A stretch of 20,606 nt of DNA from a virus: the IMG/VR virus record IMGVR_UViG_3300034105_002823, positions 1 through 20,606 of that record. One strand, given 5' to 3'. The position numbers were made by a program, and so were the translations under genes. Below, piece after piece: positions 392 through 17,280 of this stretch; position 1 is the stretch's first letter; every line of letters begins with the position of its first letter. A model generated the notes under the pieces. The model ran no database searches, was not told the origin of the DNA, and saw nothing but the letters and a program-made list of their open reading frames with translations.

Positions 392-628
392 CTATGACCG
401 CCAAGGTATCACCCCATTGGCACACATTGCCGCAGTGTGTAAAACATTTTCGCGTGCCTTGGCCAATGCCTCGGGGTGCGCTTCCCATGTAGCGAGGATC
501 AGCAGCAGCCAGCAAGGCGCGGGAAGGGCGTTGCGGGCGTAGCGGGATAGCGTGTGGTGGCTGATCCCGAGAATTGCAGCAGCCTCGGTCTGGGTCAGAC
601 CGAGGCGCTTGAGAGTGGCGTTAATCAT
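392..628 (-). CDS. Small helix-turn-helix regulator, Aca-like, left copy
   Basis: 78 residues. Residues 11-30 (from LTQTEAAAIL to the SRY end) form a helix-turn-helix; a PAPCWLLLILATWE helix follows, then a divergent C-terminal tail. The start overlaps the stop of the upstream gene as ATGA, so the two are co-translated. It is a near-duplicate of the gene at 17062-17280 on the other strand: 60 consecutive bases are identical (554-613 against 17089-17148). The order of features (helix-turn-helix core, Pro-rich turn, hydrophobic helix ending near a 'PEAL' segment) resembles Aca1-type regulators that sit last in anti-CRISPR operons and repress their own promoter. The DNA-binding fold is well supported; the Aca assignment is inference. 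It most likely represses the promoter at 1193-1221. Confidence 0.85.
   Translation of the reverse strand: MINATLKRLGLTQTEAAAILGISHHTLSRYARNALPAPCWLLLILATWEAHPEALAKARENVLHTAAMCANGVIPWRS
554..613. repeat. 60-bp inverted repeat, left arm (HTH gene)
   Basis: Identical to 17089-17148 on the opposite strand over 60 bases, about 16.5 kb apart. It covers the HTH-coding core of both Aca-like genes. Beyond it the two genes differ at many positions, so this is a sharply bounded block of identity. Confidence 0.95.
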
Positions 629-1244: not shown

Positions 1245-1790
1245 TTATTCCCGCTTAGGCCGCGTCCCGTCATAGTGGTCCACCAACCGCAGCATAGCAG
1301 CCTCGACCATCGCCGCCGTCCGGTCCCGTGGTAGGCCGCGGGCGCTGGTGATCGCCGCCAATGACAACCGCCACACGAGTAAGTCCGAGGCGAACGCGTG
1401 CAGCGTCGGACCGAGCGCATCCCGTGCGGAGTGGTGCCGATTGAGTGCCGCGGCTTTGCCCCATGCCTTAACGTGCGGACACGGCAGGTCAACCGCACCA
1501 CGACCACCGGCCGAGGATGCCCCCAGCACACCGACCTCGTAATCCCGCCGGTATCGCTCGCCAGCGCCCACCATGGCGTTCGTCCACCGTTCAGGCGTCT
1601 GGCGGTGGAGCATGAGCAGCGGGTCGTATCGCCGCTCTCCCTGGATCAGCCGCGCCTCACGCCGTAGCGGGTCCATGTCGTCGGGGTCGGCCCATGCGGC
1701 ACGCATCACGCCAGGATGGTCGAGGGTCACCGCCGCCACTGTCCGGAGCGCTGGCGCGGAGGCTGGCTTGGGCTGCTTGCGGGGCTTCAT
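1245..1790 (-). CDS. Possible phage late regulator, resembling DUF6456-type proteins
   Basis: 181 residues. The start is the ATG overlapping the upstream stop as ATGA at 1787-1790; the frame extends further upstream but lies over the neighbouring gene. The N-terminus is basic and Pro-rich (MKPRKQPKPAS). The centre has an AGERYRRDYE helix, and the C-terminal half has LGPTLHAFASDLLVW followed by a basic helix and a last helix MLRLVDHYDG. This arrangement recalls the DUF6456 family of alphaproteobacterial putative DNA-binding proteins. The likeness was judged by eye and is weak. Its place at the end of the replication operon would suit a late-gene activator, but that is inference. Confidence 0.7.
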   Translation of the reverse strand: MKPRKQPKPASAPALRTVAAVTLDHPGVMRAAWADPDDMDPLRREARLIQGERRYDPLLMLHRQTPERWTNAMVGAGERYRRDYEVGVLGASSAGGRGAVDLPCPHVKAWGKAAALNRHHSARDALGPTLHAFASDLLVWRLSLAAITSARGLPRDRTAAMVEAAMLRLVDHYDGTRPKRE

Positions 1791-1999
1791 GGGCGGGGTT
1801 TCTTGCGTTGAAAGATAGGCACGGCGGAGACACGCACAAACCCGCGCGCCATCGGATCGGGCGCGACCGTCACCAACCCCGCCGCAAGCATCCGGGACAC
1901 GGCGTCCCATTCGGGGTTCTGGCCTAAAGAGTAGGGTCGGATGGTTCGGGGGGTGGCGTAGGCGGATGGGTCTGGGGCTTTGGCGTAGGCTGGGGTCAT
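1787..1999 (-). CDS. Orphan small protein, possible winged-helix-like
   Basis: 70 residues from the chosen ATG, which has CAGGAGCC in good position; an ATG 24 bases further upstream lacks a ribosome site. The segment NPEWDAVSRMLAAGLVTVAPD followed by basic GFVRVSAVPIF reads like a short helix plus beta hairpin, but no family is recognised. Its stop overlaps the next start (ATGA), so it is co-translated with the 181-residue protein. It is the first gene after the repeat-rich non-coding block and is probably transcribed from within it. Confidence 0.7.
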   Translation of the reverse strand: MTPAYAKAPDPSAYATPRTIRPYSLGQNPEWDAVSRMLAAGLVTVAPDPMARGFVRVSAVPIFQRKKPRP

Positions 2000-2068
2000 C
2001 GGTGGCTCCTGTCGGCTGGTCATTCAGGGCGCGTGTAGGTTGTAGTGATGGCGATCCCTCCAGGGGTC

Positions 2069-2088: not shown

Positions 2089-2127
2089 CGAACCCCCGTG
2101 AGGGATAGGGGGGGGGATGGGGGGGGA

Positions 2128-2352
2128 ACTTCCGCCGCCGACTTCCGCCAAACCTCCGCTTGATATCATTGGGAAAACGGAACTCGGCGGAAGTCTAAAG
2201 TGTATATACTGGCGGAAGTCGACTTCCGCCGCTTGTGAGACACCATAACCTGTTGTGATCTAGTTGTGTTTCCGTGCGCGTCCATTTTTTGAACTTCCGC
2301 CTGTCTATACAAAACACCGCCGACTTCCGCCCAACCTCCGCCAACTTCCGCC
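2128..2352. repeat. Iteron-like cluster of ACTTCCGCC (8 exact copies, 2 or more variants)
   Basis: Exact ACTTCCGCC reads on the plus strand at 2128-2136, 2141-2149, 2222-2230, 2293-2301, 2323-2331 and 2344-2352. The reverse complement occurs at 2186-2194 and 2211-2219. One-base variants (ACCTCCGC) occur at 2152-2159 and 2334-2342. Several copies are spaced about 10 to 13 bases apart, close to one helical turn. Two further exact copies lie inside the helicase gene (3445-3453 and 3455-3463). Confidence 0.9.
2211..2230. repeat. Perfect 20-bp palindrome in the repeat cluster
   Basis: Two repeat units meet head to head here: GGCGGAAGTC followed directly by GACTTCCGCC, a perfect 20-bp palindrome with no spacer. 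A GTATATAC element lies 1 base to the left (2202-2209). A symmetric site of this size suits a dimeric binding protein. Confidence 0.85.
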
Positions 2353-2358
2353 ACCAAC

Positions 2359-4341
2359 CTACGGTTGAAGAAACCTCAAAACCCTCAGTCCTTTGGCCTT
2401 GGTTTTTGGGTCACATACCTCTGTGCGGAGGTATCCGAGCGTGCTCCATTTTTCCACAATCCCGGCTGCCTCTCGGTTGCTTAACCCGAATGTGACAGAA
2501 ATATAGGTCGGCAGATACCGCCCGTCTTTCCGGGTCTGCGGGGCTGACGACCACGGGTCTCCGCGCTTCCATGCGGCGTCTATTTCCGTAAAAACGGCAT
2601 GGATTGCCGGCCAGTCGAGGCCGGCTGCTTGTTCACTTTCTCCGTTCGTGGTGAAAGCGCCATCCTCCCATTTGATTGTGATGCCTTCGCCACGCTTGCT
2701 GTAATTTGCCTTCTTTCGATCAAGAAAGCGGGTATCAGGGTCTGCGTCATCCTTCGGGCCGGTCAGGTATAGCCGTGATCGGAATGTATTGGACCATGCG
2801 GTATTGCCGCTTGTCCCTGATCCGCTGGCCATGCCGGATGCGGACGGGTGAGCGGCAACCACCACAGCACAATCAAATGCGCGGGCAATGTTGCCTGCGA
2901 CGCCCTGGACAAACTGACGAGCGTGGGCACGCTTCACTTCCTCGCCTCCGAAGATATCGGCCAGGGTATCCAGCACCACCAATTTAGGGCGAAAAGTGGT
3001 TAGAACCTTTACCAAATCCTTGAAAAGCGCCGTCAGTTCCGGCCGATTGCGGTCATCGAATGTCATCAAGATATTGTCGAGGCCAAGGCGGGACGTATAG
3101 CGCAACATTTCCAGGTGTTGCGGGATTATGCCGATCTGGCGGTTGATTGCCTCTTGCCGGCGGTGCAGTTCGGCCGGGTCATCCTCGCACATGAAGCCGA
3201 ACGCGTTGCCGGCCCGGACATTAAGGCCGAGCCACGGCAGGCCGGTGGCCACGCTTGTGAGAAGCTGTTGAAGTAGCAATGACTTTCCTAACCCGCCGTC
3301 GCCGTAAAGCCCCGTGGCATAGCCGATCGGTATCCAATCTTGCACGAGCCATTGTCGCAATGGGGCCGGAGCGGTCCATTCGCGTGGGTCTATAATGCCG
3401 CCGTTTTCGATCTGCGGAGGTTCATCATCTTTAACCTCCGCACAACTTCCGCCGACTTCCGCCGGGTCGGCTGCCATGGACCTTTCAAGGCTTTCCCACC
3501 ATCCGGGATCGTCCGGCGGTTCAGGCGGTGGGCCTTCAAGTGACACGGGATCCCCTCGGTCTTGCATCTTCCTTGGGTTAGCCGTTCCGAAATCGAGACC
3601 GCTCTTAATCGTCGCCAACACTTCGCGTGAGGGCAGGCCGCACATTTGGCCGGCGCGGGTAAGTTCTGCCTCCGCGTCGCCCCTGCTGATCTGCCCTGCG
3701 CCGACAAGCGTGCCGATCTTTATGGCAGCGGTGTGGAGGGTGGTGTTGCGAGTCCCTTCCCCGGCTCGAATGACGGCAGCAATCTCCCCGTCTATGGCCG
3801 TTTGCGTATACCGCTCATGGTAGGTCTGCGGCCGCGTTGTATGGGTCTGGACTTGCTGTTGTGGGAGACATGCCCGGATCAACCATCGTGGCATTTCAGC
3901 CGGCTGGGAGGCGTCCGCTACGGTGTATCCGGGCGAACCGGGAAGGATGACGTAACCACCCTCCCCGCGCACGTCGACGCCTGGTGCAACACGGGATGCC
4001 GAATTACGGATTTCCACGCCTTCCGGCAGTAGGAACACCAGATGCAACCCACCGGACTGAGTGCGATGGGTGCGGGTTTCCGGGAGTGCGTCGGTGTTCT
4101 CCTGCAACCAGGCATCACCTGCCGCGCCGTTCTTGATATCCACGTCGATGACGATCAGGCCGGACGCCTTGCCGGTTGGCATCCCGATCATGGCCGCGCC
4201 ATCGGATGCGAACATGCGGCGGATCGTTTCCGGGTCCGAAGATGCGACTTCCTGCCATCGTTGGACGATCGGCCGCTTATGGCTTTCGCACGGGAAGACC
4301 GGCAAGCCAAGCGATGCGGCCAGATCGGCAATCCCGGCCAT
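2359..4341 (-). CDS. Bifunctional primase-polymerase / AAA helicase
   Basis: 660 residues from the ATG in the TGATG overlap with the upstream gene; a GTG one codon earlier is less likely. Residues 1-160 are a Prim-Pol (AEP) domain: VIDVD with D66 and D68, SGGLHLVF (96-103, the sGGxH motif) and GVDVRG (121-126). The second half is a RecA/AAA ATPase: Walker A GDGGLGKS (347-354), Walker B LVVLD (454-458) and a sensor-like VVVAAHPSASG strand. The C-terminal segment looks like a winged helix. Such proteins prime and unwind DNA at phage and plasmid origins. The linker AEVGGSCAEV (294-303) is encoded by two ACTTCCGCC units read in reverse. Its neighbours upstream are SpoVG-like and RHH proteins; the repeat-rich candidate origin is directly downstream. 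Confidence 0.92.
   Translation of the reverse strand: MAGIADLAASLGLPVFPCESHKRPIVQRWQEVASSDPETIRRMFASDGAAMIGMPTGKASGLIVIDVDIKNGAAGDAWLQENTDALPETRTHRTQSGGLHLVFLLPEGVEIRNSASRVAPGVDVRGEGGYVILPGSPGYTVADASQPAEMPRWLIRACLPQQQVQTHTTRPQTYHERYTQTAIDGEIAAVIRAGEGTRNTTLHTAAIKIGTLVGAGQISRGDAEAELTRAGQMCGLPSREVLATIKSGLDFGTANPRKMQDRGDPVSLEGPPPEPPDDPGWWESLERSMAADPAEVGGSCAEVKDDEPPQIENGGIIDPREWTAPAPLRQWLVQDWIPIGYATGLYGDGGLGKSLLLQQLLTSVATGLPWLGLNVRAGNAFGFMCEDDPAELHRRQEAINRQIGIIPQHLEMLRYTSRLGLDNILMTFDDRNRPELTALFKDLVKVLTTFRPKLVVLDTLADIFGGEEVKRAHARQFVQGVAGNIARAFDCAVVVAAHPSASGMASGSGTSGNTAWSNTFRSRLYLTGPKDDADPDTRFLDRKKANYSKRGEGITIKWEDGAFTTNGESEQAAGLDWPAIHAVFTEIDAAWKRGDPWSSAPQTRKDGRYLPTYISVTFGLSNREAAGIVEKWSTLGYLRTEVCDPKTKAKGLRVLRFLQP
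3445..3463. repeat. Two ACTTCCGCC units inside the helicase gene
   Basis: Exact units at 3445-3453 and 3455-3463, with a related ACCTCCGC at 3434-3441. They lie in the part of the gene coding for a Pro/Glu-rich linker between the primase and ATPase domains, where sequence constraint is low. Confidence 0.85.
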
Positions 4342-4655
4342 CACCCGATGGCGCCTGGATATGCCTCATTGATCGCAGCGACCACGGACACGGACAACCG
4401 ATCGGACGCCTCGCGGGTTTCCCATTCAAGGACTGGCGTATAAAGCATCTTGCCATCATTGCTGCGCCGGACGGTGCCATCGCTGGTCACCTGTGGCCTA
4501 GACGGAAGCTGCACCCATGCTTTGTCGTTCTTCGTATGGACTGCGACGTCCGTAATTTTGAGTGCGCCAAGTTTGATCTTGGCGAAACCCCGTAGGGTGT
4601 TCCGGTCCATAGCTTTCCATTCGAGGATTACCACCGGCATAGGTTTGTCGCTCAT
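4341..4655 (-). CDS. SpoVG-like small protein
   Basis: 104 residues. The segments LRGFAKIKLGALKITDVAVH and WVQLPSRP, then a run ending SVVAAINEAYPG, match the order of the SpoVG fold (a beta strand with 'GFv.v', 'i.di.v', then 'mPSr' and a C-terminal helix). SpoVG proteins bind nucleic acids; phage homologues usually sit in replication modules. The C-terminal part has an extra DGKMLYTPVLEW insertion. The start overlaps the stop of the RHH gene by four bases (ATGA), and its own stop overlaps the helicase start (TGATG), so three proteins are translationally coupled. The similarity is by eye and moderate. Confidence 0.72.
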   Translation of the reverse strand: MSDKPMPVVILEWKAMDRNTLRGFAKIKLGALKITDVAVHTKNDKAWVQLPSRPQVTSDGTVRRSNDGKMLYTPVLEWETREASDRLSVSVVAAINEAYPGAIG

Positions 4656-4858
4656 TGCCGCGGCCCCATCAAAACCACGTCCAACGCCTCCCGGTCTCGG
4701 GTGATCCCGACATAGGACCCGACCGCGCGCCCCTCCGCCGTGGCCAGGACGCCGATCGCGAGGCGCACGACGGCCGCGCGGGAAAGCCCTTGCTCGGTGG
4801 CGAGCGCCTCGATTTGCCCCACCGCCTCCCTTGGTAGTCTCATCTCGAAACGTTCCAT
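4652..4858 (-). CDS. Ribbon-helix-helix DNA-binding protein
   Basis: 68 residues from the second ATG. A first ATG 12 bases upstream is possible, but the bases of that ATG and the following codons (ATGGAGGCTGGC) supply a perfect GGAGG site for the second. Residues 1-40 fit a ribbon-helix-helix: a short strand MERFEMRLP, helix 1 REAVGQIEALATEQ, a GLS turn, helix 2 RAAVVRLAIGVLA. Such proteins dimerise, bind inverted repeats and usually repress their own operon. The perfect inverted repeat at 4884-4898 lies just upstream, overlapping a GTATATAC element. It heads the RHH / SpoVG-like / helicase operon. Confidence 0.8.
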   Translation of the reverse strand: MERFEMRLPREAVGQIEALATEQGLSRAAVVRLAIGVLATAEGRAVGSYVGITRDREALDVVLMGPRQ

Positions 4859-4883
4859 GCCAGCCTCCATTTATCCGGTATAT

Positions 4884-4910: not shown

Positions 4911-5210
4911 TCAAGGGTTATGTGGGGGGTAATACGGCTGCTTGCACTCATGGAACGTCAGCACCCACGTCTTCGGATCAATCGCAACGCGCCAGTCCAC
5001 TCCGTCAAGAGTGATGAACCCGTGCCACGCCATGGTGACGAGATCATCATCCGACGCATACATCAGCACCCACTCCGCGCTCGCGATCCGCAGCCGTGCC
5101 CACATGCAACCGCTCGGATCGCGCACGGCTTGATCCATGACGATCGGCCCAAGATCGCACACGCCATGCCGCGCGCCGTTGATGTTGGGGCCAAGGGCGA
5201 TGAAGTTCAT
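4911..5210 (-). CDS. Orphan protein downstream of VRR-NUC
   Basis: 99 residues from the ATG in a TGATG overlap with the upstream stop; a TTG one codon earlier is less likely. It is mostly beta by eye, rich in Trp and aromatic residues (WARLRIASAEWVLMYASDDDLVTMAWHGFITLDGVDW), and ends HECKQPYYPPHNP. There is no known motif, signal or membrane segment. The full coupling to the nuclease suggests a partner role in the replication/recombination operon. Function unknown. Confidence 0.75.
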   Translation of the reverse strand: MNFIALGPNINGARHGVCDLGPIVMDQAVRDPSGCMWARLRIASAEWVLMYASDDDLVTMAWHGFITLDGVDWRVAIDPKTWVLTFHECKQPYYPPHNP

Positions 5211-6029: not shown

Positions 6030-6890
6030 TTAGGCGGCCTTCCGCCGCAGTGCTGCGATGATACCAGCAGGCTTGGCGGTTTGTATCCACGCAATGAGCG
6101 TGTCTAGTTCGGACGTGGCAACGTGGCGCAATATCCATTCCGCGTATTCCTGCTCCACCGTCATGCGGATGACCGCATCAGTCGCAGCGTTGGCCTTCTT
6201 CGCTTCCTTGGCTTCTTCCTCTGCCAGTAGGCGTTCGGCTTTCTTCGCGGCCTTCTTTGCGGCCTTTTCTGCCCGTATCGTGTCTAGTTCCGCAGCAGGA
6301 TCATCCGCGTTCTTCAAGCGATCCAGCACCACGCCCTTGTCAAGATCGGTGCCAGCGATTTCCTTTAGGATAGGCTCGGGGATGTTTTCACCGCGTTCGG
6401 CGTCCCGCTGGATGGTCCGTTCCGCCTTGCCGGTCTTGGCAGCGGCGTCGGCGGTGAAGCGATCGGAGCTTTCGCCAATTTGGCGACTGCTCTCGTGCTG
6501 ATTTGTCCCGTGTTTCGTCTCCGGGTGCAGCGCCTCATAAGCCTCCTTCCGGCGCCGGGTGAATAATGCCCGTTCCGCCGTCGTCAGGCTGGTCCCGCAC
6601 AGGTTTTCGTCGCACTCGGCAACGATTGCTTCAAGTTCGTTCAGCCCAAGGATTTGCACGGGGATATTGGTTTCACCCATCTCCCTCAAAGCCTCTAACC
6701 GATGCAATCCCGAGACGAGCTTAAACCCATCAACGACACGGCCGCAGTTTAGGACGGAATGCGGCCGGACCGTGATTGGATGGAGTAGGCCAACGGATTT
6801 GATACTCGCGACCAGCGCCGCCACATGGGTAGGCGACACTTCGCGGATGCGCGACCCGCATTCGATGAGATGTAACGGCGCGGTCACCAT
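6030..6890 (-). CDS. ParB/Srx-fold protein with coiled-coil region
   Basis: 286 residues from the ATG one base after the upstream stop, with AAAGGAAA in place; in-frame codons further upstream lie inside the neighbour. Residues 1-100 are a ParB N-terminal domain: 'SIKSVGLLHPITVRP', SGLHR (60-64, the GxxR box) and DENL (94-97, equivalent to the ENxxR region) followed by LTTAER. The middle holds a possible HTH (AAAKTGKAERTIQRDAERG). Residues about 205-245 are a Lys/Glu/Ala-rich coiled coil. Phage ParB-like proteins may regulate, bind or nick DNA; some act as CTP-dependent clamps. There is no ParA partner in the window, so classic partitioning is unlikely unless it lies elsewhere. Confidence 0.88.
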   Translation of the reverse strand: MVTAPLHLIECGSRIREVSPTHVAALVASIKSVGLLHPITVRPHSVLNCGRVVDGFKLVSGLHRLEALREMGETNIPVQILGLNELEAIVAECDENLCGTSLTTAERALFTRRRKEAYEALHPETKHGTNQHESSRQIGESSDRFTADAAAKTGKAERTIQRDAERGENIPEPILKEIAGTDLDKGVVLDRLKNADDPAAELDTIRAEKAAKKAAKKAERLLAEEEAKEAKKANAATDAVIRMTVEQEYAEWILRHVATSELDTLIAWIQTAKPAGIIAALRRKAA

Positions 6891-6891
6891 A

Positions 6892-7845
6892 TCAGTTTCC
6901 TTTTGCAAAGGGGGTGCCGAGCAGCTTGAACACGCTGTTCTTTGACGCGCGGACCAGTTCAAGATGGCTGCGCCGATACCAAGCGTTCCATGCCATGGCC
7001 GTCACAAGCGAGTATTCCGTAATCGTTTGGACTTGTGCCCTTGAGAGATGCACGTTGAGCGTTCGGCGCGGGTCCTTTGCTGGCGTGGAACCGCTTTCAG
7101 CTACGCCAGCCCAGAATGCTGTCGCCTTCTGCGGTTGATACCGCAGTGTGACCAACGCGCACCCGAACACGCCTTGAGCGCGAAGCCGGCGGCGGAGGTC
7201 GCGGTCGGCAATCTCAATTATCCTGCCGTATTCCTGGATTTCGCCCTTCCACCCCAGGACCGCCGTGATCTTCCCGTCTGCCGATCTGATCTCCGGGCTT
7301 TGATTCACGCCCGTAATGAACTTGAGACCGCTATGAACAAAAACTGCGGCCTTGACCGCCGCCGACGCATGTTCTTTTGAGACGCCAAGCCCATCGGCCA
7401 ACTGTGCCGATGCCGCCAGCGTTTCGATGCTGCGAGACCGAACGGCGAAGTCATGCCGGAAGTATGCCGCGTTGATTTCATCTTCGCTTCCGACCGCGTT
7501 GACGCAAATCTGGAACTCAATCGCGGTGTTCGCCAGGATGACCGCGTGCATACGGTGGTTGCCGTTGACAAGAACAAGCCGCCCGTTCGGGAGCTTGCAG
7601 AACGCCAACTGCGACCCCGGCAACCAACTGCCCTGCGCCATGTCGTAGGCAAGGAGCCGCACATGCGGCTGGCTAATCTTGCGGTTGCTGCTATATCGGA
7701 ACATGTCCAGGATTTGCCGCGCGATCAACGGCGTGATGACAAGCCTGCCATCGTTGCGGATTCCTGCCGGTTCGTCATCTAGCAGAGTGCCAATGACCTT
7801 GCCGTCATGGTCCGTATCAAATATGTTGTTGCCTGTCTGAAGCAT
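6892..7845 (-). CDS. Second ParB-fold-like phage protein
   Basis: 317 residues. The segment 75-110 contains PNGRLVLVNGNHRMHAVI, with VNGNHR (93-98) in the place of the ParB/DGxHR box, followed by a strand and the helix SEDEINAAYFRHD. The rest is mixed helix with a basic C-terminus and is not recognised. The start has a GGAG site (TTGGAGACTAACG) directly after a hairpin. It ends one base before the next ParB gene, making a tandem of two distant ParB-fold proteins. A link to DNA or nucleotide binding is likely; catalytic activity is uncertain. Confidence 0.8.
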   Translation of the reverse strand: MLQTGNNIFDTDHDGKVIGTLLDDEPAGIRNDGRLVITPLIARQILDMFRYSSNRKISQPHVRLLAYDMAQGSWLPGSQLAFCKLPNGRLVLVNGNHRMHAVILANTAIEFQICVNAVGSEDEINAAYFRHDFAVRSRSIETLAASAQLADGLGVSKEHASAAVKAAVFVHSGLKFITGVNQSPEIRSADGKITAVLGWKGEIQEYGRIIEIADRDLRRRLRAQGVFGCALVTLRYQPQKATAFWAGVAESGSTPAKDPRRTLNVHLSRAQVQTITEYSLVTAMAWNAWYRRSHLELVRASKNSVFKLLGTPFAKGN

Positions 7846-16261: not shown

Positions 16262-16285
16262 GCATCGGGACGGGATGGCCGGACC
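16262..16285 (+). repeat. 24-bp leader segment shared with the left cassette (right copy)
   Basis: Identical, in opposite orientation, to 1165-1188. It lies in the untranslated leader between the -10 box and the ribosome site of the gene at 16305. Confidence 0.9.
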
Positions 16286-16304
16286 GGAGGGAAGGAACCA
16301 GACG

Positions 16305-16858: not shown

Positions 16859-17065
16859 ATGACCAACTTCATTCTGACCCGCTCAGACCAAGGCGACGGC
16901 GGATGGACCCTGCACGCGCCTGGGTCCACCGACGAGGACATTGCAACCGGGGACGCCTCGGCGCTGGTGAGCGGGGTATCCCGCAAACAGGCCGGGAGGT
17001 GGCTGCGGCCGAACGCGCGGGACTATGCCGACGCGGCCAGGGTGTTCGCGCGGGAGTCGGTATGA
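16859..17065 (+). CDS. Orphan small protein of right cassette
   Basis: 68 residues with CGGGAG 9 to 14 bases before the ATG. It begins MTNFILTRSDQGDGGWTLHA, has an acidic DEDIATGD part and ends in a basic helix region with DYADAARVFARESV. No family is recognised. Its stop overlaps the HTH gene start (ATGA), exactly as the 94-residue gene does in the left cassette. Candidate counter-defence protein by position only. Confidence 0.72.
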   Translation: MTNFILTRSDQGDGGWTLHAPGSTDEDIATGDASALVSGVSRKQAGRWLRPNARDYADAARVFARESV

Positions 17066-17280
17066 CCCCCACCGACATATCCCCCACCCTCAAGCGCCTC
17101 GGTCTGACCCAGACCGAGGCTGCTGCAATTCTCGGGATCAGCCACCACGCACTGTCCCGATACGTGCGCGGCGTGCTGGTGACGCCTCGGTGGTTGTTCC
17201 TGCTGCTCGATGCGTGGGAGCGGTGCCCGGAGGCTTTGGCGGCGGCACGGGCCGATTACGGCATCACCACCCGCCAGTAG
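17062..17280 (+). CDS. Small helix-turn-helix regulator, Aca-like, right copy
   Basis: 72 residues. It is the twin of the gene at 392-628: TLKRLGLTQTEAAAILGISHH is identical in both, encoded by 60 identical bases (17089-17148); beyond that the proteins diverge to about half identity (SRYVRGVLVTPRWLFLLLDAWERCPEAL here). The helix-turn-helix is clear. Overlap with the upstream gene is ATGA. As the last gene of a promoter-led cassette of small unrelated genes it fits the Aca role of shutting down its own promoter. The coding sequence contains CCTCGGTCTG-ACC-CAGACCGAGG, an mRNA hairpin also found in the twin. Confidence 0.85.
   Translation: MTPTDISPTLKRLGLTQTEAAAILGISHHALSRYVRGVLVTPRWLFLLLDAWERCPEALAAARADYGITTRQ
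17089..17148. repeat. 60-bp inverted repeat, right arm (HTH gene)
   Basis: Partner of 554-613. Contains the 10-bp-arm palindrome CCTCGGTCTG/CAGACCGAGG with a 3-base loop. Confidence 0.95.

Follow-up and report, generated by a model that had tools for sequence, protein, structure and literature searches.

The question raised by this locus is what a cluster of short repeats is doing directly behind the gene for a primase-helicase, and which protein reads it. The window, a 20.6-kb IMG/VR virus fragment, carries the array at positions 2128 to 2352, after the stop codon of a 661-aa Prim-Pol/AAA_25 gene and before the gene that follows, placing it at the 3' end of the primase-helicase gene. In all likelihood, the array is a phage replication origin that is bound by the adjacent initiator's own C-terminal domain, with both the binding and the origin activity being inferred. 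The computed results are the array itself, its location 3' of the gene, the association between array and domain, the concerted change of domain and repeat, and the covariation of residues with bases.

The array is made up of 9-bp iterons lying on both strands. Eight exact copies of ACTTCCGCC start at 2128, 2141, 2186 (minus strand), 2211 (minus strand), 2222, 2293, 2323, and 2344, giving start-to-start distances of 13, 45, 25, 11, 71, 30, and 21, and two ACCTCCGC variants are found among them at 2152 and 2334; when these variants are counted, several neighboring sites are 10 to 11 bp apart. Two of the iterons are fused head to head at 2211 to 2230, forming a perfect 20-bp palindrome, GGCGGAAGTCGACTTCCGCC. 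The longest iteron-free spacer (2231 to 2292) is 55% AT, compared with 38% for the window, and is the candidate unwinding element. This is not peculiar to the window, as the largest spacer in 53 arrays has a median AT content of 54% versus 41% for the locus (Wilcoxon p 1e-7), and the position and form of the array are conserved in relatives as well. Two criteria for an iteron origin are therefore met: clustered short repeat copies beside an initiator gene, conserved in relatives, and an AT-rich unwinding stretch in or beside the iterons, judged by sequence. G-runs, which read as C-runs on the minus strand, occupy 2108 to 2126 at the far end of the array and recur in the same place in L009 to L013, L133, and L139. 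Beside the C-runs, the minus strand can form a hairpin at 2054 to 2106 (z = -2.8), with hairpins in the same place in relatives; it is possible that this is an ssi-like single-strand initiation site, or equally that it is a terminator.

Two other sources of the array were considered and rejected. Chance or low complexity is excluded by comparison with 300 random sequences of the window's dinucleotide composition, in which no 230-bp stretch contained more than one copy of ACTTCCGCC; 23 matches with at most one mismatch were observed against 6.9 expected. Tandem duplication is excluded by the irregular spacing and the use of both strands.

The initiator gene lies on the minus strand at 2359 to 4344, with its stop codon at 2359 to 2361, and encodes a Prim-Pol primase domain (3883-4320), an AAA_25 RepA-type helicase domain (2842-3372, E 4e-32), and a C-terminal winged-helix domain (residues 577 to 661, positions 2362 to 2616) that is proposed to bind the iterons, a role for which there are no binding data. 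The AAA_25 match satisfies the criterion for an RSF1010/IncQ RepA-type helicase, in the absence of hexamer data. Consistent matches are seen among relatives: the initiator of L268 matches "helicase RepA family" genes of small plasmids by tblastn, and gp5 of Wolbachia WO is annotated as similar to RSF1010 RepA. Pfam recognizes only AAA_25 and Prim-Pol in the window's initiator, and relatives add PriCT_2 at most. The C-terminal domain has no significant family in Pfam, and sequence searches of the PDB with it gave only chance-level matches. Its AlphaFold2 model is a winged helix with a core pLDDT of about 90, in which residues 647 to 651 form the wing and residue 603 begins the second helix. Foldseek and VIA-align returned only generic winged-helix matches to this model, with a best Z of 7.9, and for this reason no specific structural family is claimed.

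The original prediction had proposed a candidate origin here, and most of what it described held. The eight exact units plus variants within 230 bases, the perfect palindrome of two head-to-head units, the AT-richer core, and the G-runs were all confirmed at the coordinates given above, as was the spacing of some units by one helical turn, since neighbors are 10 to 11 bp apart when variants are included. The array does sit beside the Prim-Pol helicase, but at the 3' end of the gene and not at its promoter. The claim that no plasmid-type RepA is present failed, as the helicase portion belongs to the RSF1010 RepA type (AAA_25), and four further sites inside the gene, at 3414 to 3463, had been overlooked. 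The candidate origin itself is strongly supported by the comparative evidence, and of the three binders offered, the C-terminal domain of the Prim-Pol protein has been singled out, while the SpoVG-like and RHH proteins are unsupported.

Four lines of evidence single out this domain as the binder: it alone is common to phages found by the DNA motif only, it predicts a downstream array when phages are found by protein, its replacement accompanies a change of repeat, and its residues covary with repeat bases. The first comes from a partial scan of viral contigs, by DNA alone, for two ACTTCCGCC within 30 bp. Many of the pairs recovered are chance matches. Among loci with at least four clustered copies, almost all encode a domain matching the last ~80 residues of the initiator, and the rest of the protein may differ, sometimes being too distant for BLAST. 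Arrays of at least four copies without the domain are either regular tandem repeats or are cut by the contig end (L026, L037), and in the truncated L037, part of the domain is still present (E 6e-10). When bacterial genome contigs were searched for triple ACTTCCGCC, none of the loci examined had the C-terminal domain; the matches are mostly evenly spaced tandem repeats and serve as a negative control only. With query A2, relatives were not found in genome contigs.

The second line reverses the direction of search, as loci were gathered using protein queries only. The set was limited to distinct domain sequences followed by 3.3 kb or more of sequence, of which there were 58, and the criterion was at least five copies of [AG][CT][CT]TCCG within 300 bp downstream of the gene. 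This was satisfied by 45 of the 58 domain-bearing proteins, compared with none of 72 upstream, 4 of 89 inside the gene, and 1 of 58 downstream when the motif was reversed. Of the 13 misses, six have an array of a diverged repeat next to the gene, made up of ACCCTCGC (two loci), ACTTTCGC (two loci), ACCTACGC, and AGTTCCGC; in seven domain-bearing loci with several kilobases downstream (L287, L315, L344, L352, L362, L364, and L368), a clear array was not found. In most cases no more than ~40 bp separate the stop codon from the first repeat, and in one large branch the array is 0.4 to 3.5 kb away from the gene. Among phages found by protein, the repeats directly follow the stop codon in RHph_N65 (ATCTCCGC, 12 copies), EBPR siphovirus 5 (ACTTCCGC, 9 copies), 16-3 (GCGTGACA, 13 copies), CRP-823 (ACTACAAA, 10 copies), and 1N2-2 (CGGTACA, 8 copies). 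The last three, together with RHph_Y3_1 (CGTTCCCA), extend the rule to other C-termini; the relatives Wolbachia WO, Mycobacterium Wanda, and ctyzp037, which also have other C-termini, lack an array and do not follow the rule.

A further relative is a circular 38-kb phage-like plasmid, p1 of Caenibius sp. WL, which carries the C-terminal domain (2e-24) and 12 copies of CTTCCGCA adjoining the initiator gene, including the head-to-head palindrome TGCGGAAGTCGACTTCCGCA, and has no other annotated initiator. That a circular element has this module and no other annotated initiator suggests that the module is able to maintain a replicon. This is the only support, and an indirect one, for autonomous replication with the initiator supplied, which remains an inference.

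Several features of individual arrays are recorded here as side observations. A TAAGTCATTGAAA-like stretch is found in the spacers of RHph_N65, RHph_Y3_1, and EBPR siphovirus 5 despite their different iterons (L258, 4120 to 4220; L260, 4210 to 4300; L259, 4265 to 4310), and it bears a loose resemblance to an IHF site. L337 and L338 have an adjacent array of a different unit (ATTAACGG/ACGGGTAT) just after the gene end at 5038, and L338 also has a ACCTCCGC array about 2.2 kb downstream. In Microcystis phage Mae-Yong1326-1 (L262), GCCCTCGC occurs 15 or more times within 220 bp, 2.2 kb past the gene end at 4134, and five copies of CGCCAGTC lie closer to the initiator gene.

The third line of evidence is the concerted change of C-terminus and repeat. 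Sister phages with enzyme cores that are 60 to 91% identical and a diverged or foreign C-terminus keep the array in the same position with a different repeat, such as GTCCACA, GAAACAC, TGGCACA, CCAGACA, or CGGGACA. In the L268 (L048) family, the cores of L280, L281, and L290 are about 65% identical, their C-terminus is unrelated, and their array consists of GTCCACA; between L268 and L280 (66% core identity), the repeat thus goes from GGCGGAAGT to GTCCACA. Further repeats in this family are GAAACA(C) in L282 and L291 and TGGCACA(C) in L283 and L284. L282 and L283 have 91% identity across 694 core residues and 49% across the last 100 aa, and their repeats, GAAACA and TGGCACA, are not shared. The 16-3 family, at 74 to 76% core identity, displays four repeats (GCGTGACA, CCAGACA, CGGGACA, and CCATACA). 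Among all pairs with 50 to 97% core identity, both partners have the same repeat in 52 of 110 when C-terminal identity is 45% or more, in 12 of 74 at 30 to 45%, and in 8 of 71 below 30%, those 8 being within the same domain family; the pairs are non-independent, and the counts are descriptive only. The alternative C-terminal ~110 aa of L280 to L284, L290, and L291 is folded confidently by AlphaFold2 (pLDDT 85) into a helix-turn-helix-like plus β-hairpin order, for which Foldseek found no clear match in the PDB.

The fourth line, residue-base covariation, was examined in 56 distinct domains with repeats aligned to one register; L262, L300, L341, and L344, which have array-like 8-mers outside the motif family, and L337 and L338, in which the motif differs, were omitted. 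All 6 domains with arginine at the position of Q603 have T as the second base of the repeat, versus 0 of 50 others, and all 8 with aspartate at the position of K647 have a base other than C at repeat position 8, versus 4 of 48 others. Where K649 is replaced by any other residue, repeat position 5 is not C in 5 of 7 cases, versus 0 of 49 others. R603 and D647 are each found in at least three domain clusters, and with clusters of 60% identity the p values are 9e-4 (603), 1e-3 (647), and 0.03 (649), a treatment that corrects for kinship only roughly and in part. Specific binding of the repeat by the initiator is thus inferred, being supported only indirectly by the association of domain with repeat and by covariation.

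In the mechanism that we propose, the initiator would bind the 9-bp iterons via its own C-terminal winged helix, and several copies would load onto the inverted and direct iterons. The AT-richer spacer would then open, RepA-type helicase rings would assemble, and the Prim-Pol domain of the same chain would prime the exposed strands, perhaps, as a guess, at the C-run and hairpin. Binding, melting, helicase loading, and the site of priming are all inferred. The C-terminal domain and the array would form a cassette, exchanged or diverging as a unit, with the consequence that each phage lineage would have its own origin address. GC skew, a check that the original prediction had called for, did not indicate the array: in the complete phages RHph_N65, CRP-823, and RHph_Y3_1 and in the window, it is weak, has no minimum at the array, and largely tracks gene strand.

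A reader may object that the repeats are operators through which the initiator or another regulator controls its own operon or the next gene (1787 to 2023, minus strand), with replication starting elsewhere. In favor of this, the array does separate the initiator gene from the following gene, which has the same orientation, and initiators often autoregulate too. However, relatives keep the array 3' of the initiator whatever gene follows, including convergent ones; 6 to 12 copies in both orientations with AT-rich spacers exceed what an operator needs; and the repeat tracks the C-terminus of the initiator and no separate regulator. We consider the operator explanation unlikely.

Rather less plausible still is a different binder, either the RHH protein (4652 to 4870) or the SpoVG-like protein (4341 to 4655). 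Both genes adjoin the initiator and both products are of DNA-binding types, with Pfam matches to RHH_1 (E 4e-4) and SpoVG (E 4e-3, below the SpoVG cut-off). Against them, it is the initiator C-terminus that loci found by motif only have in common, repeat changes track that C-terminus even between 91%-identical cores, the covariation falls inside it, and no link was found from either protein to the repeat. Equally improbable, judged only by the position of the array and its covariation, is that the array serves the ParB-like protein (6030 to 6962) as a partition (centromere-like) site. A ParB_N-type protein is indeed encoded in the window, but the array adjoins the initiator and not the ParB-like gene, and it covaries with the initiator. 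An origin read by the initiator's C-terminal domain is thus the reading we retain.

There are precedents for an initiator-helicase domain that reads origin repeats in SaPI Rep, SCCmec Cch2, and P4 alpha (PMC7581432, PMC6092414, PMC4234260). Both SaPI Rep and SCCmec Cch2 use their C-terminal domains to bind repeats immediately behind their own genes (PMC7581432), and in PICIs the origin is found 3' of rep, where two sets of iterons surround an AT-rich stretch (PMC6092414). The SaPI/PICI rep-ori (Ubeda et al. 2007 as cited in PMC7581432; PMC6092414) resembles the present locus in that the C-terminal domain of an initiator helicase reads short iterons directly 3', an AT-rich stretch lies between iteron sets, and the iterons differ among elements. 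A 3' origin with C-terminal recognition is therefore a shared criterion, met here with recognition resting on covariation only and without binding data. The criterion of a DUF927 or Primase_Cterm/D5-type helicase, which SaPI Reps carry (PMC7581432), is not met, as the helicase here is of the AAA_25/RSF1010 RepA type with a Prim-Pol, and the elements here are phages. In SCCmec Cch2, the C-terminal domain on its own suffices to bind direct repeats that lie just behind the gene, and binding through this part of the protein is inferred here too, but the helicase is D5-type, the primase-polymerase is separate, and there are only three iterons (PMC7581432).

Phage P4 alpha likewise combines primase, helicase, and an origin-repeat-binding winged helix in one polypeptide (PMC4234260). 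Its primase is Toprim (PMC4234260) and its helicase is SF3, whereas the protein here has Prim-Pol and AAA_25, so the P4 criterion of a Toprim-type primase fused to an SF3 helicase is not met. The RSF1010/IncQ RepA-RepB'-RepC system shares the RepA-type helicase and the iterons, and is a precedent for combining such a helicase with ssi hairpins, to which the hairpins near the arrays here bear a possible resemblance; it uses three separate proteins, of which RepC binds the iterons (PMC4234260). Its criterion of a separate RepC iteron binder and a separate primase is not met by the single 661-aa chain found here, and the repeats here are 9 bp and in both orientations. Finally, pRN1 ORF904 and Bordetella phage BIP-1 (PMC4234260) have a Prim-Pol, a helicase, and a C-terminal winged helix with the origin just downstream; unlike here, the helicase is SF3 and the origin is a large stem-loop without iterons.

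What appears to be new is SaPI/P4-like logic on a fused RSF1010-RepA-type engine, with a swappable and partly decodable address, the binding again being inferred. An earlier description of origins in single phages possibly exists and is not excluded, as the open-access literature was searched. A bolder reading posits a widespread class of phage replicons in which a single Prim-Pol/RepA-type engine is retained and the origin address is varied through a cassette of C-terminal domain and neighboring iterons, swapped or rapidly evolving as one piece. The cassette would contain a readable code, in which residue 603 (first in helix 2) and the wing residues 647 and 649 determine particular iteron bases, and selection would favor private origins in the face of co-infecting phages or satellites. 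We lean slightly against this larger claim as it stands. The findings provide a rule for locating replication origins of uncultivated phages from sequence alone, and with the binding domain named, origin specificity becomes testable by domain and single-residue exchange. The origin layout described as unique to PICIs now extends to phages with an unrelated helicase, and the pair whose cores are 91% identical and whose repeats differ offers a clean natural experiment in the evolution of origin specificity.

The second iteron cluster comprises four sites at 3414 to 3463, with ACCTCCGC at 3414 (minus strand) and 3434 and ACTTCCGC at 3445 and 3455, all within the coding sequence for the primase-helicase linker. 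An initiator gene containing at least two copies of the phage's own repeat is found only in the window's clade (the window, L009 to L013, L133, and L139), in all 8 of its members. These clusters are mostly in the linker-coding part, and their copies change along with the downstream repeat. The linker reads AEVGGSCAEV in the window's protein and AETSDFRGDVAETRAET in L010, where the array repeat is GTCTCCGC; these are the repeats in translation. P4 has two repeat clusters, ori and crr, and there are two here too, but the second sits inside the initiator gene. By analogy, it may be a secondary binding site, as crr is in P4, or may serve in copy control.

Two further inverted repeats were observed elsewhere in the window. 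The longer is a 166-nt inverted duplication (78%) at 453 to 618 and 17084 to 17249, at opposite ends of the fragment, which carries two paralogous small HTH genes (392 to 628, minus strand; 17063 to 17280, plus strand). The shorter is a 37-nt inverted repeat (86%) at 1152 to 1188 and 16262 to 16298, running from GCATCGGGACGGGATGGCCGGACC to GGAAC and lying just upstream of two start codons, which could be a shared leader or operator.
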